A DNA stretch of 52,616 nt, from NCBI GenBank assembly GCA_023382675.1, contig JAHDWN010000023.1, forward strand, positions 51,976-104,591. Reading direction: 5' to 3'. The translations under genes and the position numbers were made by a program. The DNA comes from Anaerolineae bacterium (GTDB taxonomy: Bacteria > Chloroflexota > Anaerolineae > Aggregatilineales > Phototrophicaceae). This document shows, in pieces, positions 1,106-17,895 of this stretch. Position 1 is the stretch's first letter. Each line of letters begins with the position of its first letter. The notes beneath the pieces were generated by a model, which was given only the letters and a program-made list of their open reading frames with translations, was not told where the DNA came from and did not search any database.

Positions 1106-1192
1106 TTACGTATTATACTGCAATTATCCGGCTGTCCAGGGTTCCAGAATGAAGTCCTGAAACAGCCTAGACCTTCCAACCGTTGGAGTGCG

Positions 1193-1211
1193 CTGCCTGG
1201 CTGCCAGGCAG
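1193..1211. promoter_or_regulatory. 19-bp dyad in the importer leader
   Basis: CTGCCTGGC (1193-1201) and GCCAGGCAG (1203-1211) form a perfect inverted repeat around one central T. In RNA it would fold as a 7-bp stem with a 5-base loop, 28 bases before the permease ATG. It may be an operator or a leader hairpin that affects translation. It also covers the region just after the alternative TTG start at 1183, which speaks for the start at 1240. Confidence 0.45.
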
Positions 1212-1239
1212 AGAGATTCTTCTAGAATGGCTTCTTCAG

Positions 1240-2262
1240 ATGCGTAACAGTTCTCTCCTCACGTCGATTGTTGTCTCATCGCGCTATATTCCGGTCTGGG
1301 TCGCCAACCTGCTGCTGATCATCGTCATCCTGATCACGACCCCGGCGACGCTCTCACAGACATCCTTCAGCACCACCCTGCCGCTGGTCGCTTTCCTCGC
1401 CATCGCTTCGATGGGGCAGATGCTCGTCGTTATGACCGGGGGTATCGACCTGTCGATCCCCAACGTGATGACGCTGGTCGCGATGATGGTGGTCGGCTTC
1501 GGCGCTGGCTCTGACGCGCGCCTGCTGCCCGCCATCGCCATCGCGCTAGGGGTGGCGATGCTGATCGGGCTGGTCAACGGCTTCCTGGTGAGCGTGCTCA
1601 AGCTCAACCCGCTGATCGTCACGCTGGCGGTGAGCCAGGTTGTGCGCGGCATCAGCATCGAATACGCCGCCGATGTCGCCAACGAGGCATCGGTACCGGC
1701 CAATCTTTCCACCTGGGCGACGGGCCAGTTCCTCGGCATCAGCCATATCTTCTGGGTCGGCATTATCATCGCAGTGGTGATGACGCTGCTGCTGCGCTAC
1801 ACCGTGGCTGGGCGGCGCTTTCAATCCGTCGGCGCAAACCCGCGTGCCGCGCATCTGGTCGGCATTCCCATCAAGCTGTACGTGGTGGTTGCCTACGTTC
1901 TGGCGGCGCTGTTGTATGGCCTGGCCGGGGTTCTCCTCGCCGGGTTCATCAGCAGCCCGACGCTTGGCCTGGGCGCGTCCTACCTGCTGGCGCCCATCGC
2001 TGCCGCGGTGATCGGCGGCGCGTCACTCACAGGCGGTCTCGCGAGTGTCATTTCGACGTGCGCGGCGGCCTTCTTCCTCACGCTGCTCAATCAAATGCTG
2101 CGCATCCAGGGGCTGTCATCCGCCTTGCAGTTCGTGGCGTTTGGCATCGCCATCATCGGCGGCATGGTCGTCTCTGGCGACCGCATCATCAAAGGCATCG
2201 AACGCCTAATGCGTGGTTTATCCCAACCCATTGGATCGGCATCTGCCGAACCTGTTCAGTGA
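1240..2262 (+). CDS. ABC importer permease, RbsC/BPL-HMT family
   Basis: This 340-residue, highly hydrophobic protein has the pattern of ribose/nucleoside-type inner-membrane permeases (RbsC, XylH, YufP/YufQ family). It would form the pore together with the permease half of the 5350-7860 fusion. The conserved motif with GGIDLS near residue 78 and the Gly/Ala-rich EAA-like segment (AAAVIGGASLTGG) are visible. The reading frame stays open back to a TTG at 1183. I chose the ATG at 1240 because it gives a conventional amino end and lies behind the leader dyad, but no strong ribosome site is present for either start. It is the first gene of the operon that continues to 12615. The substrate cannot be told from sequence. 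Confidence 0.88.
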   Translation: MRNSSLLTSIVVSSRYIPVWVANLLLIIVILITTPATLSQTSFSTTLPLVAFLAIASMGQMLVVMTGGIDLSIPNVMTLVAMMVVGFGAGSDARLLPAIAIALGVAMLIGLVNGFLVSVLKLNPLIVTLAVSQVVRGISIEYAADVANEASVPANLSTWATGQFLGISHIFWVGIIIAVVMTLLLRYTVAGRRFQSVGANPRAAHLVGIPIKLYVVVAYVLAALLYGLAGVLLAGFISSPTLGLGASYLLAPIAAAVIGGASLTGGLASVISTCAAAFFLTLLNQMLRIQGLSSALQFVAFGIAIIGGMVVSGDRIIKGIERLMRGLSQPIGSASAEPVQ

Positions 2263-2446: not shown

Positions 2447-3661
2447 ATGAAAAGAAATCTGTGGCGCACAATCGGTGCTTTGAGCCTGATCCTCATCATT
2501 AGCGGCGGTCTCAGCCTCGCCGCAGCGCAAGACACCATGCAGCCTGACGAATACGGCGAGATCTATGACGCCGATATGGAACTGATTCAGCGTGCCCTCG
2601 GTACGACCGAAGGTGTGCCGGACATCGCGTTGGCCGCGTTCTACCGCGCCGGGCTGCCCGTCAGTGAAGAAATGGCCGCCAAAGCGCTCGAATGCTGGCG
2701 CGACAAAGTCTGCGATACCGGTACGGGTGGCGAGGTGGTCGTGGCGCTGGCCGATGGCTTCGGCGAAAATGTCTGGCGCGAAGTCACGCACATGGAATTG
2801 ATCCTCCAGGCGCTGACATATCCCGAAATTGGCCGCCTCATCTACACCAGCGCGCAGTTCGACACACAGAAGGCGATTGCCGACTTCCGCAGCTTGATCG
2901 CGCAGGATGTCGATGTCATCATCGGCTTCCCGGATGCTGGCGATGCCATGCTGCCGTCCGTGCGGCAAGCGACCGAACGCGGTATCATCTACATCCCGCA
3001 CTCCTATGGCCGCCTGGGTGAGCCTGGCACTGACTATCCGACGTACGTAGCAGAAGATGTGTGTGCGCTCGGTGAGCGCTTTGCCGAAGTGTTGAATGCC
3101 GAAGTCGGCTCAGGCAAGGTCGCGTTCCTCGGTGGCACGCCCGGCAACCCACTCTCGGCTGGTTGGCAGAACTGCGAAGAAGCAGCCCTATCCGACAGCC
3201 TGGAGCTGGTCGCCCGCGCCGATACCTTCTGGACGCGTGAAGGCACGCTCGAAGCGGTTTCCGGCATTATCACCGCGAACCCGGATGTTGCTGGCTACAG
3301 CTACGAAGCCGCGGACTCGTTCCTCGGCGGGATCCGTGCTTACGAGGCCGCTGGCCTGCCCCTGGACATCACCCTGACGCTGCGCACGGACGAAGTTGGC
3401 CTGTTCTGCGAATGGCAGAATATCGGCAACCCCAACTTCAAGATTTTCTACTCGACGGGTGGCAACTATCAGTCGCGTATCGCCCTGACCGCTGCCATGA
3501 TGCAGTTGCATGGGGCGACCCTGCCAGCGGAAGTCATCATTCCGGTGCAGATGCGCCAGGTCGATGAAAGCTCGTGCATCGACGGGATGCCATCGCTGGC
3601 GTCGGTCTCCTCGCTCGTGCCGCTCGACATCTTCGTTCAGATGTACCCGGACAGCGAATAG
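2447..3661 (+). CDS. Sugar/nucleoside-type ABC substrate-binding protein
   Basis: The 404-residue product begins with a clear signal peptide (basic MKRN, hydrophobic core, cleavage near AAAQ at about residue 28). It has the alternating fold of periplasmic-binding-protein type-1 sugar binders (RbsB-like). A GGGAG ribosome site precedes the ATG by seven bases. It sits between the first permease and the ATPase gene and would deliver the ligand of this importer outside the membrane. Several cysteines occur (83 and 89, then further on), which is unusual for an exported binder and may mean disulfides. After the TAG stop, the same frame stays open for 24 more codons of coding-like composition to a second TAG at 3736 (see findings). 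Confidence 0.88.
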   Translation: MKRNLWRTIGALSLILIISGGLSLAAAQDTMQPDEYGEIYDADMELIQRALGTTEGVPDIALAAFYRAGLPVSEEMAAKALECWRDKVCDTGTGGEVVVALADGFGENVWREVTHMELILQALTYPEIGRLIYTSAQFDTQKAIADFRSLIAQDVDVIIGFPDAGDAMLPSVRQATERGIIYIPHSYGRLGEPGTDYPTYVAEDVCALGERFAEVLNAEVGSGKVAFLGGTPGNPLSAGWQNCEEAALSDSLELVARADTFWTREGTLEAVSGIITANPDVAGYSYEAADSFLGGIRAYEAAGLPLDITLTLRTDEVGLFCEWQNIGNPNFKIFYSTGGNYQSRIALTAAMMQLHGATLPAEVIIPVQMRQVDESSCIDGMPSLASVSSLVPLDIFVQMYPDSE

Positions 3662-3693: not shown

Positions 3694-3754
3694 AATCATG
3701 GGGTCGGGCAGCCCGTCCGGCCCCACCTACTGGTAGAGATCAGGGATTTTGACG

Positions 3755-5353
3755 ATGTCCACGTCCGGCGCGCAGCCCAGAGGCGAAGTCGTACTTTCGC
3801 TCAAGAATATTTCGAAACAGTTCGGCGTCGTCCAGGCGCTGAAAGATGTCAGTGTCGATTTTTACGCCGGCGAGATCCATGCCGTCGTCGGTGAGAACGG
3901 CTCCGGCAAATCGACGCTGCTCGGTATTGCCAGCGGATCGGTCGAGCAGAATCGTGGCACGGTCACGATTGGCGGGAAACCGCTCCACCGTGATTCCCCG
4001 GCAGAAGCGCTCAAGCTGGGCCTGGGCATCGCCTATCAAGACCCGGCGCAGGTGCAGCCGTTAGCAGTCAAAGAAAATCTGTATCTTGCTGCGCCGCGTG
4101 ACCGCCGTCCAGCCAATTATTTGAAGGTCAAAGACTGGGCCATTGATGTCCTCGATCGCTTCGGGCTGGAGGATGTCTTCGCCGATGCGCCCATCGCATC
4201 GCTCTCGCTGACGGATCGGCAGATGCTCGAGGTCGTCAAAGCGCTGCTTACCGACCCGACTGTGCTGCTGCTTGACGAACCGACGACGGCGCTTGGCCCC
4301 GGCGGTGTTGAATGGCTGCACCGGACGATCACCCATCGTGCCGCCGAAGGCATGGCCATCATCTACGTCAGCCATCGCCTGCCGGAAGTGCTCTCGGTCG
4401 CTCATCGTGTCACTGTTCTGCGCGATGGCATGCATCAGGGCACCTTCGACGCGGCGCAAATGTCCGAAGCGAAGCTGGCCGAACTCATGATCGGTCGCCC
4501 GTTGTCGTCGGCCTTCCCGCCACGGATCGCGCATTCGCCGGACGAAACGCCGGTGCTGACGCTGAACGGGCTGCAAGGCGAATACTGCGGGCCGGTGTCG
4601 CTGCGGGTCGCGCCGGGCGAAATCCTGGGAATCGCCGGTGTCGAAGGCAACGGCCAAGGGGATTTCTTTGCCATTCTGGCTGGCAAGATTCCGCCCAAGA
4701 AAGGCATCGCCAAGGTCGACGGCAACCATGCTGATCTCACGTCACCGCTCGGCGCGCTGCAATCCGGCATCATGCTGATGTCTGGCGACCGCAAGGGCGA
4801 GGGGCTGTTTCCGGTGCTGGGCGTGCGCACGAACGCCACGATTCAAGAACTGGGCCGGTTTGCCCTTGGCGGCTTCTTGCGCGGGCGCAAAGAGAAAAAT
4901 ACGACCACTCAATTGATAAAAGACCTGAAGATCCGCACACCCTCGATGGAGCAGCCGGTGCAGTTTTTGTCCGGCGGCAACCAGCAGAAGGTTGTGCTCG
5001 CACGCACCCATTTACGCGATTCGATCAGGGTGATCCTGTGCGATGAACCGACACAGGGGGTTGATGTGCGTTCGCGCTTCGATATTTATGAAGCGCTCCA
5101 TGCCAAGGCGCTGGAAGGCGCGGCGATCCTGGTCAAGTCGAGCGACCCCATCGAGTTGGCTGAATTCTGTCACCGCGTGGTCGTCATGTCGCGCGGGCAA
5201 ATTATTGACGATATTCCGCTGGCGGAACTGAGTGAGCGCCGGATTACGGAGGCCATTGTCGGCGGCGTCCACCTCGGCTTTGACGCCAGCGGCCCGGATC
5301 AAGGCAAGAGCATTGCCGACCAGACCGCCGAGGCAGCGGGAGAGATAGCGTGA
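3755..5353 (+). CDS. Double-domain sugar ABC ATPase (RbsA/YufO type)
   Basis: This 532-residue protein carries two nucleotide-binding domains, the usual size of RbsA/MglA/YufO. The amino-terminal half has Walker A GENGSGKST (46-54), Walker B VLLLDEPTT and a degenerate signature (LSLTDRQ). The carboxyl half has a degenerate Walker A (GVEGNGQGD) and a good signature (LSGGNQQK) followed by ILCDEPTQG, the asymmetry normal for this family. I chose the ATG at 3755 because AGGG lies nine bases upstream; a TTG at 3749 is also possible. The last bases overlap the start of the fusion gene by four (GTGA), so the two are translationally coupled. Confidence 0.92.
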   Translation: MSTSGAQPRGEVVLSLKNISKQFGVVQALKDVSVDFYAGEIHAVVGENGSGKSTLLGIASGSVEQNRGTVTIGGKPLHRDSPAEALKLGLGIAYQDPAQVQPLAVKENLYLAAPRDRRPANYLKVKDWAIDVLDRFGLEDVFADAPIASLSLTDRQMLEVVKALLTDPTVLLLDEPTTALGPGGVEWLHRTITHRAAEGMAIIYVSHRLPEVLSVAHRVTVLRDGMHQGTFDAAQMSEAKLAELMIGRPLSSAFPPRIAHSPDETPVLTLNGLQGEYCGPVSLRVAPGEILGIAGVEGNGQGDFFAILAGKIPPKKGIAKVDGNHADLTSPLGALQSGIMLMSGDRKGEGLFPVLGVRTNATIQELGRFALGGFLRGRKEKNTTTQLIKDLKIRTPSMEQPVQFLSGGNQQKVVLARTHLRDSIRVILCDEPTQGVDVRSRFDIYEALHAKALEGAAILVKSSDPIELAEFCHRVVVMSRGQIIDDIPLAELSERRITEAIVGGVHLGFDASGPDQGKSIADQTAEAAGEIA

Positions 5354-7860
5354 GAAGCGAACGCGATAAGCAGATCCGCGAGTTTCTACGGAAGCTCTGG
5401 CGCAAACAGGCGTGGAAATCGATTGTCCTGATCACCATCCTGATCCTCGCGATCGGGGGCTATTCGGCCAGACAGTCGAACGCCTTCATGTCGGAATTCA
5501 ACCTGAACAGCTTGCTGCTGGCGACGCTTCCGCTGGCGTTGGTGGCGATGGCGCAGGTGTTTGTGCTGCTCGTCGGCGATCTGGATATATCAGTCGGCGC
5601 GATCATGACCACGTGCGTGATCATCGCCTCGACCTTCATCACGCCGGATGCGGACGGTGGACAGATCGCGCTCGGCATTCTGGCGATGCTCGGCGCTGGC
5701 ATCGCCATCGGTGTCATCAATGCCGGATTGGTACACTTGATCAAGATTCCGTCGATCATCGCGACGTTGGCGACCCTGAGCATCCTGGAAGGGTTGGCGC
5801 TCGTCGCCCGCCCGACGCCCCAGGGCTTGATCAACTTCGACGTCATGGACACGTTGACGACCAGCGTCGGCTTCATACCGGTTGCCTTTATCGGGCTGGT
5901 CGTGCTGGCGCTGCTGCTGGATGTGTGGCTGCACTGGTCACGTCCAGGGCTGATGACGCGCGCCGTCGGCTATGATCAGAAATCTGCACGCCGCCTGAGC
6001 ACGCCGGAAAAACGCATTCGCGTGCGCGCCTTCATCCTGTCCGGATTCATGGCGGCGGTCGCGGCGCTCTTTCTCGCATCGCAGGTCGGCGTGGGCGATG
6101 CGCGTGTTGGCTCGACCTTCGCGCTGAGCAGCATTGCGGCTGCGGTGCTGGGCGGCACCAGCCTGGGCGGCGGTCGCGGCAGTTTCATCGGCGCGCTGAC
6201 AGCGGCGCTCTTCCTCTCGCTGATCACGAATGTCCTGCCGCTGATCGGCTTGAGCAGCTCGTATGGGTTGATCATCGTCGGTGTGCTGACCATCGTCGGC
6301 CTGATCCTGTACCAGGAAGACGACCTGCGTGCCCTCGCCAAACTGACCTACAAACAGCTTCGCCGCCGCTTCAACGCGACGACCGATCCGCTGGTCAAGG
6401 ATTACACACTGCCTGTCGTCCACACGGTCGATCCTCGCTCGAATGGCTCCGCCGCCATGTACGTGAATGGGACGCAATCCGGCGCGGCGCTCGCAGTCGA
6501 GTCGCACGCGAATGTCGTTAAGCAGCGCACCCTGATCAAGGGCGGGACAGTCATCACCATCGACCCGAACCTGGGCAGCTTCGACAAAGCCGACGTGCTC
6601 ATCGAGGGCGACAAGATTGCGGCGGTCGGCCCCAACCTGAGCGCGGACGACGCGGAAGTCATCGACGCCAGCAAGATGATCGTCATGCCCGGCTTTATCG
6701 ACACGCACCGGCACATCTGGGAAGGGCTGCTGCGCAACATCGGCACGGATGTGCCACTGGAAGGGCGCAACAGCTACATGTCCCACGTGCTGGGGCGGCT
6801 CGCGCCGTCCTACCGCCCGGTGGATGCGTACATCGGCAATCTCGTCAGTGCGCTCGGCGCACTCGACGCAGGCATCACGACGCTGCTCGATTGGTCGCAC
6901 ATTCAGGCGTCGCCGGATCACACCGATGCAATTATCGAATCGCTGCGCGTGTCCGGGATGCGCGCAGTCTTCGCCTACGGTTTTCCGTGGTGGGGCAAGT
7001 GGGAACCCAACCAGCCCGGCTGGTTCGTGCGCGCCGCCAAAACCCACTTCTCGACCAATCACCAGCTCCTGACACTGGCGCTCGCGCCCTATGGCCCGGA
7101 GTTCACGGAGTTTGAAGTCTCCAAGTCGCACTGGAAGCTGGCTCGTGACGTTGGGGCGCGCATCTCCGTGCATGTTGGTGTCGGCACCTTCGGTAAGAAA
7201 CACAAGCTCGGCGAGTTCGGTGAAGCCGGGTTGATGGGGCCGGATACGACCTACATCCACTGCACGACGCTGGCCGATGATGAGATCCAGTGGATCGTCG
7301 ATACGGGCGGCACGATTTCGCTGGCGGCTCCGGTCGAAATGATGATGGGGCACGGCATGGTGCCGACGCAGAAGTTCCTGGATCGCGGCCTCAAGCCGAG
7401 CCTGAGCGTCGATGTCGAAACCAATGTGCCGAACGATATGTTCACGCAGATGCGCAGCGTCCTCGCGCTCCAGCGCGCGCTGATTCACAGCCGGGCGCTC
7501 GCGGGCGAATCCAATCTGCCTCGCCTGCTGACCACGTATGACGCGCTTGAATTCGCCACGATAGAAGGCGCGCGCGCCAACGGTCTCGATCACAAGACAG
7601 GCAGCCTGACTCCCGGCAAGGAAGCCGACATCGTTATGCTGCGTACCGATACCATCAACGTCATGCCCGTTAACGATCCGGTCGGCGCGGTCGTCTGGGG
7701 AATGGATACCAGCAATGTCGACTCGGTGTTTGTCGCGGGCAAGCCGATGAAACGCAACGGTGAGCTGTGCAACGTCGATCTCAACCGGCTGCGCGATCTG
7801 GTCTACGAATCGCGCGATTACGTCATCCGGCGGGCGGGCTTCCGGCTGCCAGCGATTTGA
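5350..7860 (+). CDS. Fusion: RbsC-type ABC permease + amidohydrolase
   Basis: The 836-residue protein joins two families that are normally separate. Residues about 20-322 are a complete RbsC-like permease with the LVGDLDIS motif near 74-81 and the AAAVLGGTSLGGG segment near 263-275. Residues 323-393 are a soluble linker. Residues about 394-836 are a metal-dependent amidohydrolase of the cytosine-deaminase/TrzN/AtzA type. Its metal and catalytic residues appear intact: H453 and H455 (DTHRH), H608 (SVHVG), H637 (YIHC) and D688 (SVDVE). By topology the enzyme part should sit on the cytoplasmic face, so imported ligand could be hydrolysed at the pore exit. It starts with GTG, overlapping the ATPase gene by four bases. 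There is no stop, frameshift or ribosome site at the junction around 6320-6530. The substrate is unknown; deaminated bases, triazines or cyclic amides are candidates. Confidence 0.9.
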   Translation: MRSERDKQIREFLRKLWRKQAWKSIVLITILILAIGGYSARQSNAFMSEFNLNSLLLATLPLALVAMAQVFVLLVGDLDISVGAIMTTCVIIASTFITPDADGGQIALGILAMLGAGIAIGVINAGLVHLIKIPSIIATLATLSILEGLALVARPTPQGLINFDVMDTLTTSVGFIPVAFIGLVVLALLLDVWLHWSRPGLMTRAVGYDQKSARRLSTPEKRIRVRAFILSGFMAAVAALFLASQVGVGDARVGSTFALSSIAAAVLGGTSLGGGRGSFIGALTAALFLSLITNVLPLIGLSSSYGLIIVGVLTIVGLILYQEDDLRALAKLTYKQLRRRFNATTDPLVKDYTLPVVHTVDPRSNGSAAMYVNGTQSGAALAVESHANVVKQRTLIKGGTVITIDPNLGSFDKADVLIEGDKIAAVGPNLSADDAEVIDASKMIVMPGFIDTHRHIWEGLLRNIGTDVPLEGRNSYMSHVLGRLAPSYRPVDAYIGNLVSALGALDAGITTLLDWSHIQASPDHTDAIIESLRVSGMRAVFAYGFPWWGKWEPNQPGWFVRAAKTHFSTNHQLLTLALAPYGPEFTEFEVSKSHWKLARDVGARISVHVGVGTFGKKHKLGEFGEAGLMGPDTTYIHCTTLADDEIQWIVDTGGTISLAAPVEMMMGHGMVPTQKFLDRGLKPSLSVDVETNVPNDMFTQMRSVLALQRALIHSRALAGESNLPRLLTTYDALEFATIEGARANGLDHKTGSLTPGKEADIVMLRTDTINVMPVNDPVGAVVWGMDTSNVDSVFVAGKPMKRNGELCNVDLNRLRDLVYESRDYVIRRAGFRLPAI

Positions 7861-7910: not shown

Positions 7911-9257
7911 ATGCCGATGTCCATCCGCACCAACGGCTCGATGGCGGTCGATTGGGAAGAACGTATCAATTTTGATCGTCTGCGCACGCAGCGCCTCGAC
8001 CGCATCAAGGCACAGCTCGCCAAATCCGAGGCGGGCGCGCTTCTGTGCTTCGACATGACCAATATCCGTTATATCACCGCCACCCACATCGGCACCTGGG
8101 CGCAGGATAAGATGTCGCGCTTTGCGCTGCTGCCGCAAGAGGACGAGCCGATCCTGTGGGATTTCGGTTCGGCGGCGAAACATCACCAGTTGTACGCTCC
8201 GTGGATGGGCGGCGCAGAGCGGAGCCGGGCGGACCCGACGCTGCTGCGCGGCGCGATCTCCCCGGAGACGGGCCGCGCCCGCGACGTGGCTAAGAAGATC
8301 TTCGTCGAACTGGAAGCGCGCGGTCTGCACAAAGAACCACTGGCGGTCGATCTGATCGAGATCCCGATTCTTGAGGCGCTGCAAGAACTGGGCGTCACCG
8401 TGATCGACGGGCAGCAGATGATGCAGTACGCGCGCGTCATCAAGACGGTCGATGAGATCGCGCTGCTCACCCATGCGGCGGCGCTGGTCGATGCGGCCTA
8501 TGAGGAAATCTACCGCAATCTGCGCCCCGGCGTCCGCGAAAACGAGATCGTCGGCCTGGTCAGCAACTTCCTCTACTCCAACGGCTCGGAGTATGTCGAA
8601 GGCGTCAACGCGATCTCTGGCGAACGCTGCAGCCCGCATCCGCACGTGTTCTCAGATCGCATGCTGCGACCCGGCGACCCGGCTTATTTCGACATCCTGC
8701 ACAGCTACATGGGCTATCGCACCTGCTATTACCGCACCTTCGTCGTCGGCAGCGCGTCGCAGGCGCAGGTCGATGCTTACAAACGCTGCCGTGACTATCT
8801 CGACCATGCGATCAGCCTGATCAAGCCAGGTGTCACGACTGCCGAGGTTTGCGACGTGTGGCCGAAGGCGGAAGAATTCGGCTTCCCGAACGAAGAAGCC
8901 GCGTTTGCGCTCCAGTACGGCCATGGCATCGGCCTGGCGATCTGGGAGAAGCCGGTCATCAGCCGCATGGTGTCATACGATTTCACCGAGACGATTGAAG
9001 AAGGCATGGTCTTCGCCCTGGAGACGTTCTGGCCTGCCACCGACGGTTGGAGCGCAGCCCGCATCGAGGAAGAAATGGTCGTCACGGCGACCGGTTGCGA
9101 AGTGATCACCCGCTTCCCCGCCGAGGAACTGCTCGTCACGGGTCGCCAGTACTTCACCGCCACCGGGCCACTGAACGCCGTGCGCGACACCGAATCGCAG
9201 TACAACAACCCGCGCGTGCCCGCCAACGTGCGCAGTAACGGCAAAGTCGGCGTTTAG
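7911..9257 (+). CDS. M24-fold protein (Xaa-Pro peptidase/creatinase/DddP superfamily)
   Basis: The 448-residue protein has the two-part layout of M24B proteins: a creatinase-type amino domain (about 20-180) and a pita-bread catalytic domain. Metal-site positions D261, H338 (YGHGIG), E371 (ALETF) and E386 (RIEEE) are present. The second aspartate (D in the usual SDITRT) is replaced by C272. This suggests a changed or absent two-metal site, as in creatinase, where the fold works as an amidinohydrolase. The frame is open further upstream, but the ATG at 7911 has a GGAAGGGAT ribosome site. The gene lies 50 bases after the fusion and 39 before the E2 gene, in the same operon. A C-N hydrolase role on the imported compound is plausible, but a peptidase or DddP-like lyase cannot be excluded. 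Confidence 0.8.
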   Translation: MPMSIRTNGSMAVDWEERINFDRLRTQRLDRIKAQLAKSEAGALLCFDMTNIRYITATHIGTWAQDKMSRFALLPQEDEPILWDFGSAAKHHQLYAPWMGGAERSRADPTLLRGAISPETGRARDVAKKIFVELEARGLHKEPLAVDLIEIPILEALQELGVTVIDGQQMMQYARVIKTVDEIALLTHAAALVDAAYEEIYRNLRPGVRENEIVGLVSNFLYSNGSEYVEGVNAISGERCSPHPHVFSDRMLRPGDPAYFDILHSYMGYRTCYYRTFVVGSASQAQVDAYKRCRDYLDHAISLIKPGVTTAEVCDVWPKAEEFGFPNEEAAFALQYGHGIGLAIWEKPVISRMVSYDFTETIEEGMVFALETFWPATDGWSAARIEEEMVVTATGCEVITRFPAEELLVTGRQYFTATGPLNAVRDTESQYNNPRVPANVRSNGKVGV

Positions 9258-9296: not shown

Positions 9297-10604
9297 ATGG
9301 CAACCGACATCATTTTACCGAACGCCGGGTTTGACACGCAGTCGGCACGGATCATCGAATGGCTGGTGAAACCAGGCGACAGCATCACCAAAGGTGATGT
9401 GATCGCGGTCATCGAGTCCGACAAGGCGAACGTCGAACTGGAAAGCATCGCGACGGGCATTGTGCTCGATATTCTCTACCCGGAGGATACCGATGTTCCG
9501 GTGGGGGCGACGATTGCGCACGTCGGCAGCGCCGATGAACGTGTATCGCCAGCACCAGCAGCCGCCAGCGCTCCATCGTCAGCTTCCGCGTCAGCGAATG
9601 ACAACGTGCGTGTCAGCCCGTTGGCAAACCGGCTCGCGACCGAGCATCAGATCGATCCGTCAACTATTGCGGGATCTGGCCCCAAAGGCCGTGTGACCCG
9701 TGAGGACGTGGAACGGCATCTACAACGAGCAAACGGACATTCTCGCCCGCTGGCGCTGCCCAAAGTCCGGCGCGCAGCCCGCCAGGCGGGGATCGATCTG
9801 GCTCAGGTGACGCCCACGGGGGCGGACGGGCAGATCACGCTGGCGGATCTGCAAGCTTATCAAACACAGGCGGCGTCGGTCGCCCCTGCGGCGCAAACAC
9901 AAGAGGCGGAGAGTGTTGCGCCCACAACGGAGACACGCGAGGGCGTGACCGAAATCCCGCTCAGCCGGATGCGCCAGACCATCGCCCACCGCCTGCAGAA
10001 AAGCGCACAGGACGCGCCACATTTCTACGTGACCGGCGAATTCGATGTTGAAGCGGCGCTCGCACGGCTAGCGGAACTGCCTGAGCCACGCCCTCGCATC
10101 AACGATCTGATCCAGTACCTGACCGTGCGCACGCTGATGCAGGTGCCGCAGTTGAACGCGACGTTCGAGAATGGACACCTGTATCAGCACCAGAGTGTCC
10201 ATCTCGCCATCGCCGTGGCGCGTGATGATGGGTTGCTGACGCCAGTTGTGCGCGGCGCGGATCGTTTCAATCTGCACGGGGTGATGCAGGAAAGCCGTGC
10301 CGTTATCACACGCACGCGCGAGAACCGCCTCCAACCGGACGATTTGAGCGGCGGCACGTTTACGATCAGCAATCTCGGCGTCGTGCCGCAGGTCGATCAC
10401 TTCACGGCGGTCATCAACCCGCCGCAGGTCGCCATCCTCGCCGTCGGCGCGATGAAGCAGCGCCCGGTGATCATCAACGGCGGCTTTCATGCGCGGCATA
10501 CGGTGCATCTGACCATCAGCGGCGATCACCGCGTGGTCGATGGGATGCGCCTGGCGCAGTTTCTCGCGGTGTTCCAACAGGAACTCGATACATTCACTCG
10601 TTAG
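9297..10604 (+). CDS. 2-Oxo-acid dehydrogenase E2 (dihydrolipoyl acyltransferase)
   Basis: The 435-residue protein has E2 domains in the normal order. A lipoyl domain (1-78) carries the modified lysine at K43 in SDKAN. A peripheral-subunit-binding domain spans about 104-142, and a second, weaker one spans about 152-188. A Pro/Ala/Glu-rich linker leads to the acyltransferase domain (about 215-435) with catalytic H411 and D415 in the HRVVDG motif. Two binding domains in one chain are less usual than one. It moves the acyl group from E1 to CoA. Ribosome site GGAAGAGCGG precedes the ATG. Pyruvate, acetoin and branched-chain complexes cannot be told apart safely from sequence. Confidence 0.9.
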   Translation: MATDIILPNAGFDTQSARIIEWLVKPGDSITKGDVIAVIESDKANVELESIATGIVLDILYPEDTDVPVGATIAHVGSADERVSPAPAAASAPSSASASANDNVRVSPLANRLATEHQIDPSTIAGSGPKGRVTREDVERHLQRANGHSRPLALPKVRRAARQAGIDLAQVTPTGADGQITLADLQAYQTQAASVAPAAQTQEAESVAPTTETREGVTEIPLSRMRQTIAHRLQKSAQDAPHFYVTGEFDVEAALARLAELPEPRPRINDLIQYLTVRTLMQVPQLNATFENGHLYQHQSVHLAIAVARDDGLLTPVVRGADRFNLHGVMQESRAVITRTRENRLQPDDLSGGTFTISNLGVVPQVDHFTAVINPPQVAILAVGAMKQRPVIINGGFHARHTVHLTISGDHRVVDGMRLAQFLAVFQQELDTFTR

Positions 10605-10624
10605 CTCGTTGAGGAAATAGGTTT

Positions 10625-11629
10625 ATGGTCGTTATCAACATCCCCCAACCGACCGTCTCGGTGACACCGCTCGATGTTGACACGCGCATGACTGCGCTGC
10701 GCAAAATGCTGGAGATTCGCCTGACCGAAGAAAAGATTCAGGAGATGTTTCTTGCCAATCTGATTCGCGGCACCACCCATCTGTGCATCGGGCAGGAGGG
10801 GGTTTCGACGGGCGTCGCCTCGGCGCTGCGCAAGGGCGATACCGTGACGTGTACCTATCGCGGTCACGGGCACGCGCTGGCGCTCGGCATGAGCGTCAAG
10901 GCGATGATCGCGGAGATGATGGGGAAAACGTCCGGCTGCTGCAAGGGCAAGGGCGGCAGTATGCACATGACCGACGCGTCTATCGGGCTGCTCGGCGCGA
11001 ACGCGATTGTAGGCGCGCAGCTCCCCATCGCGGTTGGCGCGGCGCTGACGGCCAGCATGAAGAACACGGGCGCGATCTCCGTGACCTTCTTCGGCGATGC
11101 CGCGACCAACATCGGCGCGTTTCACGAGTCGCTCAATCTGGCGTCGGTCTGGAAACTGCCGGTTATCTTTGTTTGCGAGAACAACCGCTACGGTGAATAT
11201 TCCCCCCAGCATTGGACGACGCCGGTCGAGAACCTGTCCGTGCGGGCCGCGTCATACAACATACCCGGCGTGACCGTCGATGGGCAGGATGTCGAGACTG
11301 TTCACGCCGAGTTCAAGGTTGCGGCGGAGCGCGCCCGCGCTGGCGAAGGCCCCACGTTCTTAGAGATGAAGACGTATCGCTATCTCGGCCATTCCCGCAC
11401 CGACACCGGCCCCTATCGTCCGCCGGGCGAACTGGATGCGTGGAAGGAACGCGATCCGATCCTGCTGCTCAAAGTCAAGATGATCGCCGATGGTCAGCTC
11501 GATGAAGTCGAGTTTGGCGAACTGCGCGACGCAGCCGAGCGGCATGTCGCCGAGGCGGTCGAATGGGCGAAGCAGGAACCGTATCCGACAGAAGCGGATT
11601 TGCTGACCGATATTTTCTACGAGGGTTAA
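10625..11629 (+). CDS. 2-Oxo-acid dehydrogenase E1 alpha subunit
   Basis: The 334-residue protein is a thiamine-diphosphate E1 alpha subunit (AcoA/PdhA type). The ThDP motif begins at GDAATN and ends at the double Asn (CENN) about 30 residues later, and the Gly-rich HMTD region (KGKGGSMHMTD) is present. A GAGGAAATAGG ribosome site precedes the ATG. The gene lies 20 bases after E2 and five before E1 beta, so the proteins should assemble as one complex. It decarboxylates a 2-oxo acid (or cleaves acetoin) and passes the acyl group to lipoyl-E2. The order E2-E1alpha-E1beta differs from the more common E1-E1-E2 order. Confidence 0.9.
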   Translation: MVVINIPQPTVSVTPLDVDTRMTALRKMLEIRLTEEKIQEMFLANLIRGTTHLCIGQEGVSTGVASALRKGDTVTCTYRGHGHALALGMSVKAMIAEMMGKTSGCCKGKGGSMHMTDASIGLLGANAIVGAQLPIAVGAALTASMKNTGAISVTFFGDAATNIGAFHESLNLASVWKLPVIFVCENNRYGEYSPQHWTTPVENLSVRAASYNIPGVTVDGQDVETVHAEFKVAAERARAGEGPTFLEMKTYRYLGHSRTDTGPYRPPGELDAWKERDPILLLKVKMIADGQLDEVEFGELRDAAERHVAEAVEWAKQEPYPTEADLLTDIFYEG

Positions 11630-11634
11630 GGACG

Positions 11635-12615
11635 ATGCCAGTACTGACGTATCGAGAAGCCGTCCGCAACGCACTGGCGGACGAGATGCGCGCCGATGAG
11701 AACGTGGTGTTTTTTGGCGAAGATGTGGCGGCTGCGGGCGGTGTGTTCAAAACGACCCCAGGGCTGCAAGAGGAATTCGGCTCGAAGCGCGTCCGGGACA
11801 CACCGATTTCGGAAGAGGCGTTCATCGGCGCAGCGCTCGGCGCCGCGATCACCGGCCTGCGCCCCGTCGCCGAGTTAATGTTCGCCGACTTCATCCCGGT
11901 AGCGATGGATCAGATCGTCAATCAGATCGCCAAATATCGCTACATGAGCGGCGGCCAGTTCATGGTTCCGCTGACGATCCGCTCGGCGCAGGGCGGCGGC
12001 GTCGGCTTCGGCACGCAGCATTCGCAGACGGCGGAAAACTGGCTGCTCAACACGCCGGGGCTGAAGATCGTGCTGCCGGGCACGCCCGTCGATGCCTATG
12101 GGCTGCTGCGCGGTGCCATCCGCGAGAACAACCCGGTGATCGTGCTGGAACACAAAGGGCTGTATAACCTCAAAGGCGAAGTCCCGGATGACACGGGCGT
12201 GCTCGAACTCGGCAAAGCCAAAGTGGTGCGTGCCGGTCGCCATGTTACGGTGGTCGGTGCTCAGTTGATGGTGCATCGCGCGTTGGAAGCCGCCGAAACC
12301 CTCGCCAAAGACGGGATTGAGGTCGAGGTCATCGATCTGCGTACGCTCGCCCCGCTGGATACCGCGACTGTCCTCGAATCCATCAAGAAGACGGGGCGGC
12401 TGGTGGTGGTCGAGGAAGCGCCGCACACGTCGAGTTGGGGTGGCGATCTCGCCTCGCTTGCCGCGGACGAAGGGATTTACTACCTGGATGCGCCGGTCAA
12501 GCGCGTGAACATGGGGCGCGCGATGTTCGCCTACAGCGAACCGCTCGAGACTCTAGCGATCCCAAGCGTCGAGCGGATCACAGCCGCCATCCGCGAGACC
12601 GCCTACACGCAGTAG
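11635..12615 (+). CDS. 2-Oxo-acid dehydrogenase E1 beta subunit
   Basis: The 326-residue protein is the beta subunit of the heterotetrameric E1 (AcoB/PdhB type). It has the amino motif FFGEDVAAAGG and the transketolase C-terminal region with VVEEAPHTS. The frame is open back to 11563, but the ATG at 11635 lies directly after the E1 alpha stop (five-base gap) and gives the standard amino end (MPVLTYREA). It is the last gene of the plus-strand operon and faces livF, 29 bases away. No E3 (dihydrolipoamide dehydrogenase) gene is seen, so E3 must come from elsewhere in the genome. Confidence 0.92.
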   Translation: MPVLTYREAVRNALADEMRADENVVFFGEDVAAAGGVFKTTPGLQEEFGSKRVRDTPISEEAFIGAALGAAITGLRPVAELMFADFIPVAMDQIVNQIAKYRYMSGGQFMVPLTIRSAQGGGVGFGTQHSQTAENWLLNTPGLKIVLPGTPVDAYGLLRGAIRENNPVIVLEHKGLYNLKGEVPDDTGVLELGKAKVVRAGRHVTVVGAQLMVHRALEAAETLAKDGIEVEVIDLRTLAPLDTATVLESIKKTGRLVVVEEAPHTSSWGGDLASLAADEGIYYLDAPVKRVNMGRAMFAYSEPLETLAIPSVERITAAIRETAYTQ

Positions 12616-12644: not shown

Positions 12645-13349
12645 CTAGCCACCCAGGTAGGCTTTTTGCACGTCTGCGTTCTGAATAAGATCAGCGCTCC
12701 GGCCAGAGAGCGTCACAACACCAGTTTCGAGCACGTAAGTACGATCAGCCAGCCTCAACGCCTGGTGTGCATTTTGCTCAACCAGCAGAATGGTCTTGCC
12801 ATCGCGGTTGATGTTCTTCAGGATATTGAAGATCTCACGCACGAGAATCGGCGCTAGCCCCATCGATGGCTCGTCAAGCAGCATCATGTCGCCGCCAGTG
12901 ACTAGCGCCCGCCCGACAGCCAGCATCTGCTGTTCGCCGCCCGATAGCGTGTCGGCGCGCTGGTGCTGGCGTGATTCAAGCTGCGGGAAGCGCTTCAGTG
13001 CATCGCTCAGGCGCTGCTTGAGCACGGGTTCGTCGAGGCGAAAACCAGCCAATCGCAGATTCTCGTAGACGCTCAAATTACCGAAAATTCGGCGTCCTTC
13101 GGGTACGAGCACCATACCTCGCTCGACAATCTTGTGTGCCGGAATACCGGCGATCGGCTCGTCCTGGTAGGTGATCGTCCCGCTGTCCGGGGCCTGTAAC
13201 CCGGCAATCGTATTGAGAATGGTGGATTTTCCCGCCCCGTTTGCGCCAATGAGGGTGACGATCTCGCCCTTATCCACCTCGAATGAAACGCCTCGTACCG
13301 CGCGGATATTGCCGTAGGAGACGTGCAAATCCCGAACCTGGAATAGCAT
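12645..13349 (-). CDS. livF: Branched-chain amino-acid ABC ATPase LivF
   Basis: The 234-residue single-domain ATPase is of normal LivF length. It has Walker A GANGAGKST, signature LSGGEQQ and Walker B MLLDEPS, and ends in the typical YLGG. It would form the ATPase heterodimer with LivG on the cytoplasmic face. Its ATG overlaps the final base of livG, so it is the last gene of the livKHMGF operon. Confidence 0.93.
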   Translation of the reverse strand: MLFQVRDLHVSYGNIRAVRGVSFEVDKGEIVTLIGANGAGKSTILNTIAGLQAPDSGTITYQDEPIAGIPAHKIVERGMVLVPEGRRIFGNLSVYENLRLAGFRLDEPVLKQRLSDALKRFPQLESRQHQRADTLSGGEQQMLAVGRALVTGGDMMLLDEPSMGLAPILVREIFNILKNINRDGKTILLVEQNAHQALRLADRTYVLETGVVTLSGRSADLIQNADVQKAYLGG

Positions 13350-14125
13350 TACGAGATCTCCTCGTCCTCTACACCCAGATAAGCTTCGATCACTTTGGTA
13401 TTGCGCTGAATGTCGTCTGGGCCGCCTTCAGCGATGGTTTCCCCAAAATCGAGAACAGTAATGCGCTCACAGATATTCATCACCAGGCGCATCTGATGCT
13501 CGATCAACCAGATGGTCACACCCAATTCGCTACGGATGCGTTGGATGAACACCATCAACTCTTCGATCTCCTGCGGGTTCATCCCTGCCGCCGGTTCATC
13601 CAACAGCAGCAGTTTCGGGTTCGCGGCCAGGGCGCGCACGATCTCAACCCGGCGCTGCTGTCCATAGGGCAGATTTCTCGCCGGTTGCTGCGCATGATCG
13701 GCCAGGTTAAAGAGCTTCAACATCTTCATCGCCTGCGCTTCGATCGCCTGTTCCTGGTTGCGATAACGCGGCAGTTGCAGAAAAATATCCTTGAGATCGT
13801 ATTGGATGTGCCCGTGTTGGGCGACCTTGATGTTGTCCAGCACCGTCATTTCGTTCCACAAGCGGATCGTCTGGAAGGTGCGGCTAATCCCCATCTTATT
13901 GATCTGATGTGGTGGTAGCCCGACAATATCCTGATCGTCAAAGATGATCCGGCCTTCAGTGGCACGGTAGGCCCCTGTCACCAGGTTGAAGACCGTCGTT
14001 TTGCCTGCTCCGTTGGGGCCGATCAACCCAACCAGTTCACCGGGCTCAATGCGCAGATTGAAATCGCTGACAGCCTTTAGTCCGCCAAAAAAATGGGTGA
14101 CATTCTCAGTCTTCAGCAGTGGCAC
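13349..14125 (-). CDS. livG: Branched-chain amino-acid ABC ATPase LivG
   Basis: The 258-residue ATPase has Walker A GPNGAGKTT, the LivG-specific signature PYGQQRR and Walker B LLLLDEPAAG, and ends in a typical YLG tail (EAYLGVEDEE). It overlaps livM by 20 bases at its start and livF by one base at its end, which shows tight translational coupling. Length and motifs are normal for the family. Confidence 0.93.
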   Translation of the reverse strand: MPLLKTENVTHFFGGLKAVSDFNLRIEPGELVGLIGPNGAGKTTVFNLVTGAYRATEGRIIFDDQDIVGLPPHQINKMGISRTFQTIRLWNEMTVLDNIKVAQHGHIQYDLKDIFLQLPRYRNQEQAIEAQAMKMLKLFNLADHAQQPARNLPYGQQRRVEIVRALAANPKLLLLDEPAAGMNPQEIEELMVFIQRIRSELGVTIWLIEHQMRLVMNICERITVLDFGETIAEGGPDDIQRNTKVIEAYLGVEDEEIS

Positions 14126-15608
14126 CGCTCACCTCCGGCTTTTCTTTCGCTTTTTGCCAACCCCAGTTCAGCTCAATTTCGCGAAAGCCGAACAAGCCTT
14201 GCGGTCGGAATAGCATTAGCACAATCAGGATCAACGGGATAACGACCCATTTCAGGATCGCCAGGGGGCGCAGCGCTTCCAGCAGCAGCGTGAAGATAAT
14301 GGCCGCAATGATCGAACCACTAATGCTGCCCATCCCGCCCAGATAGACCATGACCAGAACCTCGGTCGATTTGAGAATGCCGAAGTTGCCGGGGTTGATG
14401 TACGCCAACACGTGAGCGAAGAGCCCGCCAGCCACGCCCGCGAAGAACGATGACACGAGAAAGGTCACCAGCTTAATGCGCTTGGTATTGACCCCCATCA
14501 ACTCGGAGGCGATTTCATCCTCCCGGATGGCGATAATCCCTTTGCCGAACGTCGAATTAACGAGGCTGTGGATGATGAACACCGACAGTATCGTCGTCAG
14601 CAGCACCCAGGACAGGTCACTCCACAAGGGCACGCCATTCAAGCCGCGCGCCCCGCCAATGCCCTCCATATTGTTGATTGCGCTCTGAACGATGAAGTTG
14701 ACCGCCAGTGTCACAATCGCCAGATAATCGCCGCGCGTACGGAATGAGGGAAAGGCGACCAGCAAGGCGGCAATGGCTGCGGCGATGCCACCCGCGAACA
14801 AGGCAATGGCGAAACCTACAGGCAGCCCCCAGGAAGGATCGAGCGCAGGCGCGCCGAATACGCGATCATCGACAAAGGCCCACATGGTCATGACGGACGA
14901 TACATAAGCGCCGACCGCCATGAACGCGGCATGACCGACCGAGAACTCGCCCATGTAACCGTTCACCAGATTGAGGCTCACGGTCAAAATGATGTTGATG
15001 CCCATGAAGATCAGGACGAGTTCGCGCGTGCCGCCATCATCGCCCCAGAGCAAGACGATGGCCGCCAGGATGATCAGATGGACAAGGATGAGCGACCACT
15101 TAGGAAAGCGCCTGAGAAGCTCGCTCACGAGTGGGCGCAGCAAGAAGGCGATGATCAAGATCGGTACGACGAAGACGACGATGTCGTAGATCAGCACGCG
15201 GAACGTGACATCAAAAAAGCCCGGTGCTCGTGGCCCCTGGTAAAAGAAGGCTTTTACAAAGGTTGTCGCGAGTTCTCCGAGTGCCTGCACCGAGTCTTGA
15301 AGCGGTGAGGCAGATATGTTGTTGGGCGATGGGAAAAATGGCGCGAGAATCCCCGAAAAATCCAGATCCGAGAACGGCTCGAATATGTCGACGATACCGA
15401 AGAAACGTGGAATTCGACGGAATCCCAATAGATCGGCAAAGGCTTCACCCTGCCACTGCTCCAACAAGACTGCGACCAACACGCCTAACTGAAAGGCCAG
15501 CACCGGCGTCTGCGCCAATTGCCGTCGCAGCGCAGTCCACACAGGTGAGACAATCCGCCCCACTGGCCTAAAGATGGATGAAAATAAGTTTCCGCTCCTG
15601 CCTGCCAT
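14106..15608 (-). CDS. livM: Branched-chain amino-acid permease LivM with long N-terminal extension
   Basis: The last 300 or so residues (about 195-485) are a standard LivM permease, including the NGYMGEFSVGHAAF segment and the C-terminal FRPQGLFG motif. The first 190 residues are extra. They hold a basic amphipathic start, one or two further membrane spans, a soluble loop rich in Phe, Asp and Pro (about 60-115), and another hydrophobic pair. Usual LivM proteins have about 320-420 residues; this one has 500. No internal start with a convincing ribosome site was noted, and the extension seems to be part of the protein. It pairs with LivH in the membrane. Confidence 0.88.
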   Translation of the reverse strand: MAGRSGNLFSSIFRPVGRIVSPVWTALRRQLAQTPVLAFQLGVLVAVLLEQWQGEAFADLLGFRRIPRFFGIVDIFEPFSDLDFSGILAPFFPSPNNISASPLQDSVQALGELATTFVKAFFYQGPRAPGFFDVTFRVLIYDIVVFVVPILIIAFLLRPLVSELLRRFPKWSLILVHLIILAAIVLLWGDDGGTRELVLIFMGINIILTVSLNLVNGYMGEFSVGHAAFMAVGAYVSSVMTMWAFVDDRVFGAPALDPSWGLPVGFAIALFAGGIAAAIAALLVAFPSFRTRGDYLAIVTLAVNFIVQSAINNMEGIGGARGLNGVPLWSDLSWVLLTTILSVFIIHSLVNSTFGKGIIAIREDEIASELMGVNTKRIKLVTFLVSSFFAGVAGGLFAHVLAYINPGNFGILKSTEVLVMVYLGGMGSISGSIIAAIIFTLLLEALRPLAILKWVVIPLILIVLMLFRPQGLFGFREIELNWGWQKAKEKPEVSGATAED

Positions 15609-15620
15609 GCTCTCGCACCC

Positions 15621-16526
15621 TTACAATTTTTGACGGCGCGCCACACCGAACAACCCGGTTGGCCGCACGACAAGAATGACCAACAGCAGCGCAAAACCCA
15701 CCAGATCACGGTAGGACGATGAAATACCGATGGGCGATCCGAGGGCAACCACAAAAATCTCTACAAATCCCAGTAATAAGCCACCGAGAGCCGCGCCACG
15801 AATGTCACCGATGCCGCCGACGACCGCTGCTATGAATGCTTTCCAGCCAACCCGCAGCCCCATATACGGACTCAACGACGCTGTGAAAGCCACACCCCAC
15901 AATATCCCAGCCGCCGCCGCCAAGCCTGCGCCCAGCACAAAGGTCAGCGTGATGATGCGATCTTGCGACACGCCCATCAGCGGGACAGCAAACTTGTCAT
16001 AGGAAATCGCCCGCATCGCCATGCCCCATTTCGTGCGCTGCACTATGTAATACAGGCACAGAAACAGAATCAAGGCAACGGCGATGATCACGATGCGCAC
16101 ACTGAGTTCAAGTGTCGTGTCGCCAATCGTCACGCTGGCGGCAAAGAAATTGTCCGGGTAGCGTCGCGGGTCCGCCCCGGTGAGCGCCAACATGCCATTC
16201 TCCAACAGCAGGCCAACACCCAGGGCTGTGATCACTGCCGACAAACGCGAGGCATGGCGGAGCGGTTTGTAGGCAACCTTCTCGATCGTGATGCCTAACA
16301 GCGCCGTGATGATCATCGAGAGTAAGAGGGTCGGCAAGAAGGGCAGCCCCAAAACGAAGGCGCCAAACACACCGATAAAGGCACCAAACATGAAAATGTC
16401 GCCGTGGGCGAAATTGATTAGAAGCAGAACCCCGTACACCATCGTGTAGCCGAGTGCGACAAGCGCGTACAGACTGCCAAGTTGCAGGGCATTGAGGAAC
16501 TGCTGCGCCAGTGTATCAAGATCCAT
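15621..16526 (-). CDS. livH: Branched-chain amino-acid permease LivH
   Basis: The 301-residue membrane protein has the LivH opening (a LGSLYALVALGYTMVYG-type segment), the INFAHGD motif and a C-terminal RPTGLFG. The frame is open to 16583. I chose the ATG at 16526 because GGAG sits a few bases upstream and the product then starts at the normal place for LivH. It is separated from livK by 175 bases that contain a strong hairpin, and from livM by 12 bases. Confidence 0.92.
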   Translation of the reverse strand: MDLDTLAQQFLNALQLGSLYALVALGYTMVYGVLLLINFAHGDIFMFGAFIGVFGAFVLGLPFLPTLLLSMIITALLGITIEKVAYKPLRHASRLSAVITALGVGLLLENGMLALTGADPRRYPDNFFAASVTIGDTTLELSVRIVIIAVALILFLCLYYIVQRTKWGMAMRAISYDKFAVPLMGVSQDRIITLTFVLGAGLAAAAGILWGVAFTASLSPYMGLRVGWKAFIAAVVGGIGDIRGAALGGLLLGFVEIFVVALGSPIGISSSYRDLVGFALLLVILVVRPTGLFGVARRQKL

Positions 16527-16653
16527 AAGACCTGCTCCGGTTGAGTTCAAATCTTGAGCCAGGGACGCCGCATCCGCGCACAAAGAGGCGTCAACCGCAC
16601 TGCGTTGCCTGATCCATTGGCTGACCGTGAAGCACGGCCCGGGACTCGGTGAT

Positions 16654-16690
16654 CTGAAGACAGGGCGTCGTTATGAGGCCCTGTCTTCAG
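16654..16690 (-). other. Strong intercistronic hairpin between livK and livH
   Basis: CTGAAGACAGGGC (16654-16666) is perfectly complementary to GCCCTGTCTTCAG (16678-16690), a 13-bp stem with an 11-base loop, starting 12 bases after the livK stop. No T-run follows in the livK direction. It likely acts as a partial terminator or a 3' stabiliser that keeps the binding protein more abundant than the membrane parts. Confidence 0.65.
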
Positions 16691-16701
16691 CATGGTCAGT
16701 G

Positions 16702-17895
16702 TTACATATCTTCGGGCGGGAAACCTGCCGGGCAGGCCGAGTCGTAGTAGGTGAATGCGCCTTCATGGATCTGGATGATCACGGCGCATTTGGTCGGGTC
16801 GCCCTGCTCATCGAAGCTCATGGCGCCCGTGACACCTTCATACAGATCGATGTTAGCCAAACCGTCGCGAATGGCCGCCCGCTCCAACGACTGAGCATCT
16901 TCAACCGCCCTGAACAGCAACTGGAAGCTGTCGTAAGTCAGCGCAGCCACGTCGTCGGGTTTCGCTCCGTACAGCTCTTCGTAGGCGTTGATGAACGTCT
17001 GGGCCACGTCGGTCGCGATATCTGGCGCGTAGTGCGTGCTGAAGAACAAGCCTTCGCAGGCATCGCCACACAGCGCGAGCAGATCTGGAGTGCCCCAGCT
17101 ATCGCTGCCAAGGATCGGGCCTTCAAAGCCGAGAGCACGGGCCTGCTGCACGATCAGCGGCACTTCGTTGTAATACTGCGGCGTGAAGATCACGTCCGGT
17201 GACTGAGCAATGATATTGGTCAACTGCGAGCTGAAATCGGTATCGCCGGTTGTGAAGCTCTCAAACGCCACGACTTCCATGCCCAATTCTTCGGCTGCAT
17301 CGCGGAAATTCTCCGCCAGACCCTTGGGATAGTCACTGGCGATATCGTACAGCACGGCCACGTTGGTTGCGCCAAATTCACTGGCGGCGAACCCGGCCAC
17401 AACCGGCCCCTGGAAGGGATCAAGGAAGGCGGCGCGGAAGACCCAGGGGCGATCGAATGTCGTATCCGGGTTGGTGGACCAGGGACTGATCATCGGCGTC
17501 TCGCGGTCATTGGCGACTTGCCCGGTCGGGACAGCCTGCTTGCTCGATTGCGGCCCGATAATCGCAATCACCTCATCATCGACGATCAGCTTGGTCGCCG
17601 CGGCTACGGACGATTCCGCTTTCGACTCGTTGTCTTCGACGACGATGATGACCTCATAGTTTTCACCGTTGATCTGGAGGCCGCAGGCAGCATTCCTCTC
17701 GTCTGTGGCCATTTCAGCCGCTTCGACTGTGCTTTGACCAACCCTGGGAATATCGCCCGTCAGTGGCGCGATGACACCGATAACCGCCTCGCCGACAAAG
17801 TTGCAGTCCCCCTGCGCAGCCAGCGGCCACACACTTACCGAAGCCAGCAACACAAGCAACAGGCAAAACATCAAAACGCTTCGCTGCCTCGTCAT
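16702..17895 (-). CDS. livK: Branched-chain amino-acid-type binding protein LivK/LivJ
   Basis: The 397-residue protein starts with a signal peptide (MTRQRS, a long Leu/Val core, cleavage near AAQG) and continues with the type-1 binding fold of the Leu/Ile/Val family (IGVIAPLTGDIP near the start). AAGGAG lies upstream of the ATG. It is the first gene of the liv operon. It should bind the ligand outside the membrane for LivHM. The ligand may be an amino acid, a urea-type or an aromatic compound, as this family is broad. Confidence 0.9.
   Translation of the reverse strand: MTRQRSVLMFCLLLVLLASVSVWPLAAQGDCNFVGEAVIGVIAPLTGDIPRVGQSTVEAAEMATDERNAACGLQINGENYEVIIVVEDNESKAESSVAAATKLIVDDEVIAIIGPQSSKQAVPTGQVANDRETPMISPWSTNPDTTFDRPWVFRAAFLDPFQGPVVAGFAASEFGATNVAVLYDIASDYPKGLAENFRDAAEELGMEVVAFESFTTGDTDFSSQLTNIIAQSPDVIFTPQYYNEVPLIVQQARALGFEGPILGSDSWGTPDLLALCGDACEGLFFSTHYAPDIATDVAQTFINAYEELYGAKPDDVAALTYDSFQLLFRAVEDAQSLERAAIRDGLANIDLYEGVTGAMSFDEQGDPTKCAVIIQIHEGAFTYYDSACPAGFPPEDM

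Follow-up and report, generated by a model that had tools for sequence, protein, structure and literature searches.

A ribose-type ABC permease encoded in one frame with an amidohydrolase in Anaerolineae and Acidimicrobiia

The window analysed here is a stretch of 52,616 nucleotides from an Anaerolineae bacterium (assembly GCA_023382675.1, contig JAHDWN010000023.1, positions 51,976 to 104,591), and near its start lies a ribose-type ATP-binding cassette (ABC) import operon whose second permease gene continues into an amidohydrolase. The fused gene (5350-7860, forward strand) is a single open frame of 836 amino acids with no internal stops, starting with GTG in a 4-base overlap with the end of the ATPase gene (5353). 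An initial annotation, made from the sequence alone, had described a permease running without a stop into a complete amidohydrolase, and Pfam agrees with this, both domains being nearly full length: BPD_transp_2 (PF02653) was found at residues 53–316 (E 2e-25, profile positions 3–267 of 269 covered) and Amidohydro_1 at residues 444–799 (E 1e-26). In NCBIfam, residues 392–830 matched the PRK08204 subfamily (NF006056), whose name is ‘hypothetical protein’, with 531 bits against a cut-off of 391, while none of the models for sugar or autoinducer-2 (AI-2) permeases exceeded its own curated cut-off among the matches listed.

The same two-domain order was sought in other genomes. A scan of representative genomes returned 77 loci, and both halves were found in one frame at 42 loci other than that of the window (52–92% identical in the best segment), which according to their record titles belong to Anaerolineae, Acidimicrobiia and relatives, in two phyla. 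One fused locus, titled Fimbriimonadaceae, stands among the Acidimicrobiia rows in the trees and represents either a transfer or mis-binning. Two of the 42 loci are damaged: in L047 the contig end cuts the frame soon after the enzyme half begins, and in L078 the frame is broken inside the enzyme half. A free-looking enzyme, L045, begins at a contig end in the same metagenome-assembled genome (MAG) as L047 and is probably its other half. Further searches by order, phylum and the class of Desertimonas, which overlap the 42 loci and scored the best 2 to 7 candidates per genome, so that absences are soft, found the fusion in 6 of 151 genomes of the order sample (own genome included; these were all six with a match at E 1e-80), in 2 of 400 genomes of the phylum sample and, as both halves in one frame, in 17 of 296 genomes of the class sample. 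A class search with the permease half alone (298 genomes) recovered the fused gene only in the window's own genome, along with one unfused relative of 31% identity. No plasmid-borne fusion was seen: of 87 plasmid records matched at E 1e-60, none spanned 80% of the query at a single site.

An assembly or frameshift artefact joining two genes is an explanation to which we give practically no credence: the window does come from a draft of 110 contigs, and frame breaks do occur in L078 and in an enzyme fragment of genome G845, from the Desertimonas class sample, that lies in three frames near a contig end, but in dozens of assemblies, the one for Desertimonas flava strain SYSU D60003 included, both halves share a single frame, and the third-position codon pattern runs across the junction. 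The initial annotation had named relatives that all encode two separate proteins, together with a base missing near 6320-6530, as the signs of an assembly error, and the 42 one-frame loci are the opposite of that picture. Judged from these sequences, the fusion is genuine and not a sequencing or assembly error, because both halves share one frame at 42 other loci.

The linker has two parts of different character. Four residues (D325, L329, K331 and R339) are invariant in 36 fused sequences and all lie in the helix right after the pore, and the segment following the last membrane helix is mildly basic, with 6 Lys/Arg against 3 Asp/Glu in 23 residues. Residues 345–390 vary in length and sequence among the fused relatives, and the stretch that aligns to residues 335–395 of the window's fused protein counts 36–65 residues at the 42 loci. 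Against each of four relatives, third positions were the most often changed in the linker codons, with the frame open through the length differences; against L011, amino acid changes exceed silent ones. An internal start yielding a separate enzyme was considered and rejected: no in-frame start codon at the domain boundary or in the linker is conserved among the 42 loci, and four of them have no ATG, GTG or TTG at all in the aligned linker. Cutting of the one polypeptide within the linker, which would leave a conventional permease and a soluble enzyme of the usual kind, seems to us improbable; it would suit the variable length, variable sequence and low-confidence prediction of residues 345–390, but that variable part holds no conserved site, and the invariant residues sit in the helix right after the pore.

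The predicted model of the whole chain (mean predicted local distance difference test score, pLDDT, 74) consists of a helical half, a helix at residues 323–344, a low-confidence stretch to residue 390 and a barrel half, with pLDDT below 50 at residues 341–351 and 364–390. The enzyme half aligned to 3hpa over residues 392–830 with a VIA-align Z of 39.3, and solved TRZ/ATZ enzymes gave Z of 37–39. Since VIA-align on the whole model tested chiefly residues 391–828, the permease (residues 1–350) was folded separately (mean pLDDT 79); its best Foldseek matches were the ABC importers BtuC, HmuU and PsaB, all weak (E 0.02–0.03), with template modelling (TM) scores of 0.40–0.48 to BtuC and HmuU (E 0.02). 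A sequence search of the PDB with the permease half gave no matches at E up to 1. Permeases of the RbsC type have a topology that places the C-terminus in the cytosol, and from this and the positive-inside rule the enzyme half would be cytosolic.

The five metal ligands named in the initial annotation (H453, H455, H608, H637 and D688) are all present, and the HHHHD set is intact in 42 of 42 fused rows, a set that leaves out the damaged L047 and L078 (the latter has Gly at position 688 in the alignment). Among the free paralogues of fusion-bearing genomes, at least one ligand is lost in 12 of 31, against 1 of 34 free enzymes of other genomes (Fisher 4e-4, a value that ignores shared ancestry, five Anaerolineales changes probably being one event). 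The group of 31 takes in the free enzymes at L047 and L049, since the fusion is present in both MAGs, and L045, a cut fused half, is kept out of the 34; L012 is cut, with two ligands unseen, the same gene fills two of the 34 rows (L046 and L151), and a free enzyme of genome G782, with ligands intact by eye, is counted in neither group. Five Anaerolineales have Gln in place of His608, and seven Acidimicrobiia-type loci have Gly or Glu in place of Asp688, three of these with further losses. The paralogues concerned, each lacking one to three ligands, are those of L016–L019, L043, L023, L025, L032, L037, L038, L050 and L078, and are likely pseudoenzymes in the making; the free paralogue of the window's own genome keeps all five. 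Because ligand loss differs in this way between fused and free copies, the data suggest a working enzyme in the fused copy and, in some lineages, a non-catalytic companion in the free copy, which is kept at full gene length.

The reaction itself is another matter. V611 occupies a site which we take to be that of the Glu in the HxxE motif at the third His ligand of the methylthioadenosine/S-adenosylhomocysteine (MTA/SAH) deaminases; Glu stands opposite it in the alignments of 3lnp, 4dyk and 4gbd. All 42 fused rows carry Val here, as do all 12 free Chloroflexota sisters and 26 of the 54 other free rows, and the classical aminohydrolase motif is thus absent from the fused enzymes. Because of this replacement the label ‘deaminase’ is unsafe, the reaction need not be a classical deamination, and the suggestion of ‘deaminase or amidase’ activity in the initial annotation is weakened. 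On the 3 of the 87 plasmids that were inspected, the neighbours of free relatives include ring-cleavage dioxygenase, maleylacetate reductase and fumarylacetoacetate hydrolase genes, a hint of aromatic catabolism for the family that does not suffice to give the fused enzyme a function.

A quick tree of 108 amidohydrolase domains put the 42 fused rows and L045 in one group (Shimodaira–Hasegawa-like approximate likelihood ratio test, SH-aLRT, 96) beside free Chloroflexota paralogues. A more careful enzyme tree of 57 rows (all 42 fused rows, one more fused row and 14 chosen others) recovered the fused group, L045 aside, with support of 81/99, and in a permease tree the 42 fused halves formed one group against 14 unfused rows (100/100). 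The unfused Desertimonas permease 2 was sister to the fused permeases in a tree of 20 of the 42 fused rows and 6 unfused ones (95/99). These trees fit a single origin of the fusion. The Acidimicrobiia rows are nested within the Chloroflexota rows in the enzyme trees (94 in the quick tree, 97/98 in the careful one), but this nesting is weak in a reduced permease tree (86/90) and absent from the larger one (83/73), so that the direction of transfer is likely but tree-dependent. None of the free enzymes in the enzyme trees made falls within the fused group. The G782 free enzyme (68% identical) was tried as a split copy and rejected, as it lies outside the fused group, beside an M24 gene; the same genome also carries a fused copy.

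The fused gene is the last of four transporter genes (Table 1), and in each of the 29 loci whose upstream DNA reaches far enough the order is permease 1, binding protein, ATPase, fusion. A script identified 27 of these; the other two are L040, where the binding protein lies in two frames, and L150, which is on the opposite strand. In L015–L019 and L043 (6 of 6 loci) a TAG closes the ATPase frame and the fusion frame begins with no gap behind it; for two of these genomes the genome-search output conflicts with this, giving one open ATPase-plus-fusion frame of 1347–1349 amino acids. Downstream, the M24 gene probably belongs to the fusion cluster and the dehydrogenase-like E2/E1 genes possibly do: by script, within the stretches examined, an M24 hydrolase lies near the fusion at 6 of 42 loci, with partial ones at more, and E1 or E2 at 12 of 42. 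The M24 product resembles the dimethylsulfoniopropionate (DMSP) lyase DddP, a likeness to that family without membership of it. In relatives the cluster also includes a beta-hydroxyacid dehydrogenase-like gene and one for an XRE-cupin regulator.

Table 1. Features of the fused gene and its neighbours, in window coordinates.
Feature	Position	Strand	Details
Permease 1, likely partner of the fused permease	1183..2262	+	PF02653 at 65–316, E 4e-26; start codon uncertain
Substrate-binding protein	2447..3661	+	PF13407 Peripla_BP_4, E 4e-18
Double ATPase, RbsA/AraG type	3749..5353	+	PF00005 twice; AraG best NCBIfam row, 379 bits, below cut-off 689
Permease half, residues 1–322	5350..6315	+	RbsC/BPD_transp_2 type; PF02653
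Linker, residues 323–391	6316..6522	+	Helix 323–344, then variable low-confidence stretch
Amidohydrolase half, residues 392–836	6523..7857	+	PRK08204 subfamily; ligands H453, H455, H608, H637, D688
M24-family hydrolase, DddP-like	7911..9257	+	119 bits against DddP cut-off 600
2-oxoacid dehydrogenase-like E2, E1 alpha and E1 beta genes	9297..12615	+	Pfam

By script, 21 of the 42 loci (22 counting L150) have a free amidohydrolase gene immediately ahead of permease 1 in the same orientation; in five Anaerolineales it is on the opposite strand, and in L011 it comes after the fusion. In the window's own genome the free paralogue (G000:C23:49261-50619) is 66% identical to the fused half and stops about 1.4 kb short of the window; a bicupin-like gene precedes it, and SDR-like and bicupin-like genes separate it from permease 1, these genes being named by likeness to L047 genes. 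Facing the fused operon on the reverse strand is a second ABC import cluster, of branched-chain type (12645-17895), with two ATPase-like frames (by eye), a 500-amino-acid permease protein and a Peripla_BP_6 binding protein. Similar gene sets occur with other transporters: at L151 (genome G661, gene names mostly by eye from frames), E1/E2-, M24-, bicupin- and SDR-like genes and two free amidohydrolases accompany a Liv-type transporter instead of a ribose-type one, and at L167 (G965:C73) a single-chain ATPase–permease fusion with no enzyme attached lies upstream of an M24 gene that is 50% identical to that of the window, in a genome that also has a fused copy.

We favour, at a probability of roughly 0.7, an uncut pore subunit of a ribose-type ABC importer with a pathway enzyme tethered at its cytosolic exit. 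The binding protein would pass on a small organic, probably nitrogen-containing or aromatic molecule to a pore of permease 1 and the fused permease, driven by the double ATPase; the tethered amidohydrolase would convert the emerging substrate as the first catabolic step, and the product may feed the enzymes encoded nearby (M24 hydrolase, bicupins, dehydrogenases, E1/E2 complex). The initial annotation had likewise put the enzyme at the pore exit, should the chain stay unprocessed, and the conserved fusion of two intact domains, the invariant metal site, the basic segment after the last helix and the lack of a conserved boundary start are in keeping with that part of its proposal, its suggested activity being the part that has lost ground. 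Dimers are usual in the amidohydrolase family and, because just one of the two permeases is fused, a second protomer might come from elsewhere, conceivably from a neighbouring transporter or the cluster's free paralogue. The free paralogue encoded just outside the window, beyond the view of the initial annotation, changes the likely quaternary picture; we regard as unlikely, though worth stating, a hetero-oligomer in which the tethered amidohydrolase would be catalytic and a ligand-losing free paralogue would complete or regulate it, coupling transport and chemistry at the pore exit. The initial annotation also raised channelling of the substrate and a chemical trapping that would make import one-way; such effects of the tether would be reasonable to expect, though we put their odds clearly below even.

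Several points weigh against the favoured reading: the distribution of the fusion in the phylum sample is patchy, G943 in the Desertimonas class sample has an L078-like broken frame, in 7 of the 42 loci a weak Shine–Dalgarno-like stretch precedes an in-frame linker start (its place is not conserved), cleavage in the variable linker has a small probability and, on the gene sets at hand, the pathway does not need the fusion. The enzyme family occurs unfused in many bacteria as well as in related clusters, so that tethering would be dispensable for the reaction. The main rival, a serious contender though we consider it less than even, is a fusion that acts as a tether only, setting stoichiometry or membrane placement with no effect on import or substrate transfer. 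The variable and poorly predicted linker, which suggests no fixed docking, would be expected from such a tether, as would the related clusters that lack the fusion (the Liv-type one in G661 and the ATPase–permease fusion beside M24 in G965), but the trees place no free enzyme within the fused group across two phyla, suggesting a benefit of staying fused.

The usual picture of ABC importers, to our knowledge, is one of mere conduits whose substrates are broken down by separate soluble enzymes. A conserved ABC pore with its own pathway enzyme would offer a natural test of physical coupling between import and reaction, with natural controls in the unfused paralogous transporter and in similar catabolic gene sets served by other transporters. 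The former is represented by the unfused Desertimonas flava cassette (L149), which has two binding-protein genes (41–42% identical), permease 1 (51%), the ATPase (55%) and a permease 2 (45%) whose 388-residue frame ends without an enzyme; SnoaL-like and lactate-racemase-like frames (by eye) follow this cassette.

Carbohydrate uptake transporter 2 (CUT2) or ribose-type importers (RbsABC, AraFGH, LsrABCD) share the gene row of a double ATPase, a pair of BPD_transp_2 permeases and a periplasmic binding protein, whereas here the second permease bears a 445-residue enzyme and no importer model exceeded its cut-off among the NCBIfam matches listed. The PRK08204 and TRZ/ATZ amidohydrolases (3hpa; TrzN, 3ls9; MTA/SAH deaminases, 4f0r and 4dyk) share the whole fold (Z 37–39) and the five ligands, whereas here the enzyme is joined to a membrane pore and has Val for the HxxE Glu. 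Carbonic anhydrases are also found on SulP proteins, which are secondary carriers and not ABC importers, and that enzyme is of another class. As far as the title of the work tells, carbonic anhydrases fused to SulP anion transporters (Felce and Saier 2004, cited in PMC3924187) likewise put transporter and enzyme on one chain. No fusion of an ABC permease with an amidohydrolase appeared among the matches listed in the open-licence literature, as judged by titles and the starts of abstracts.

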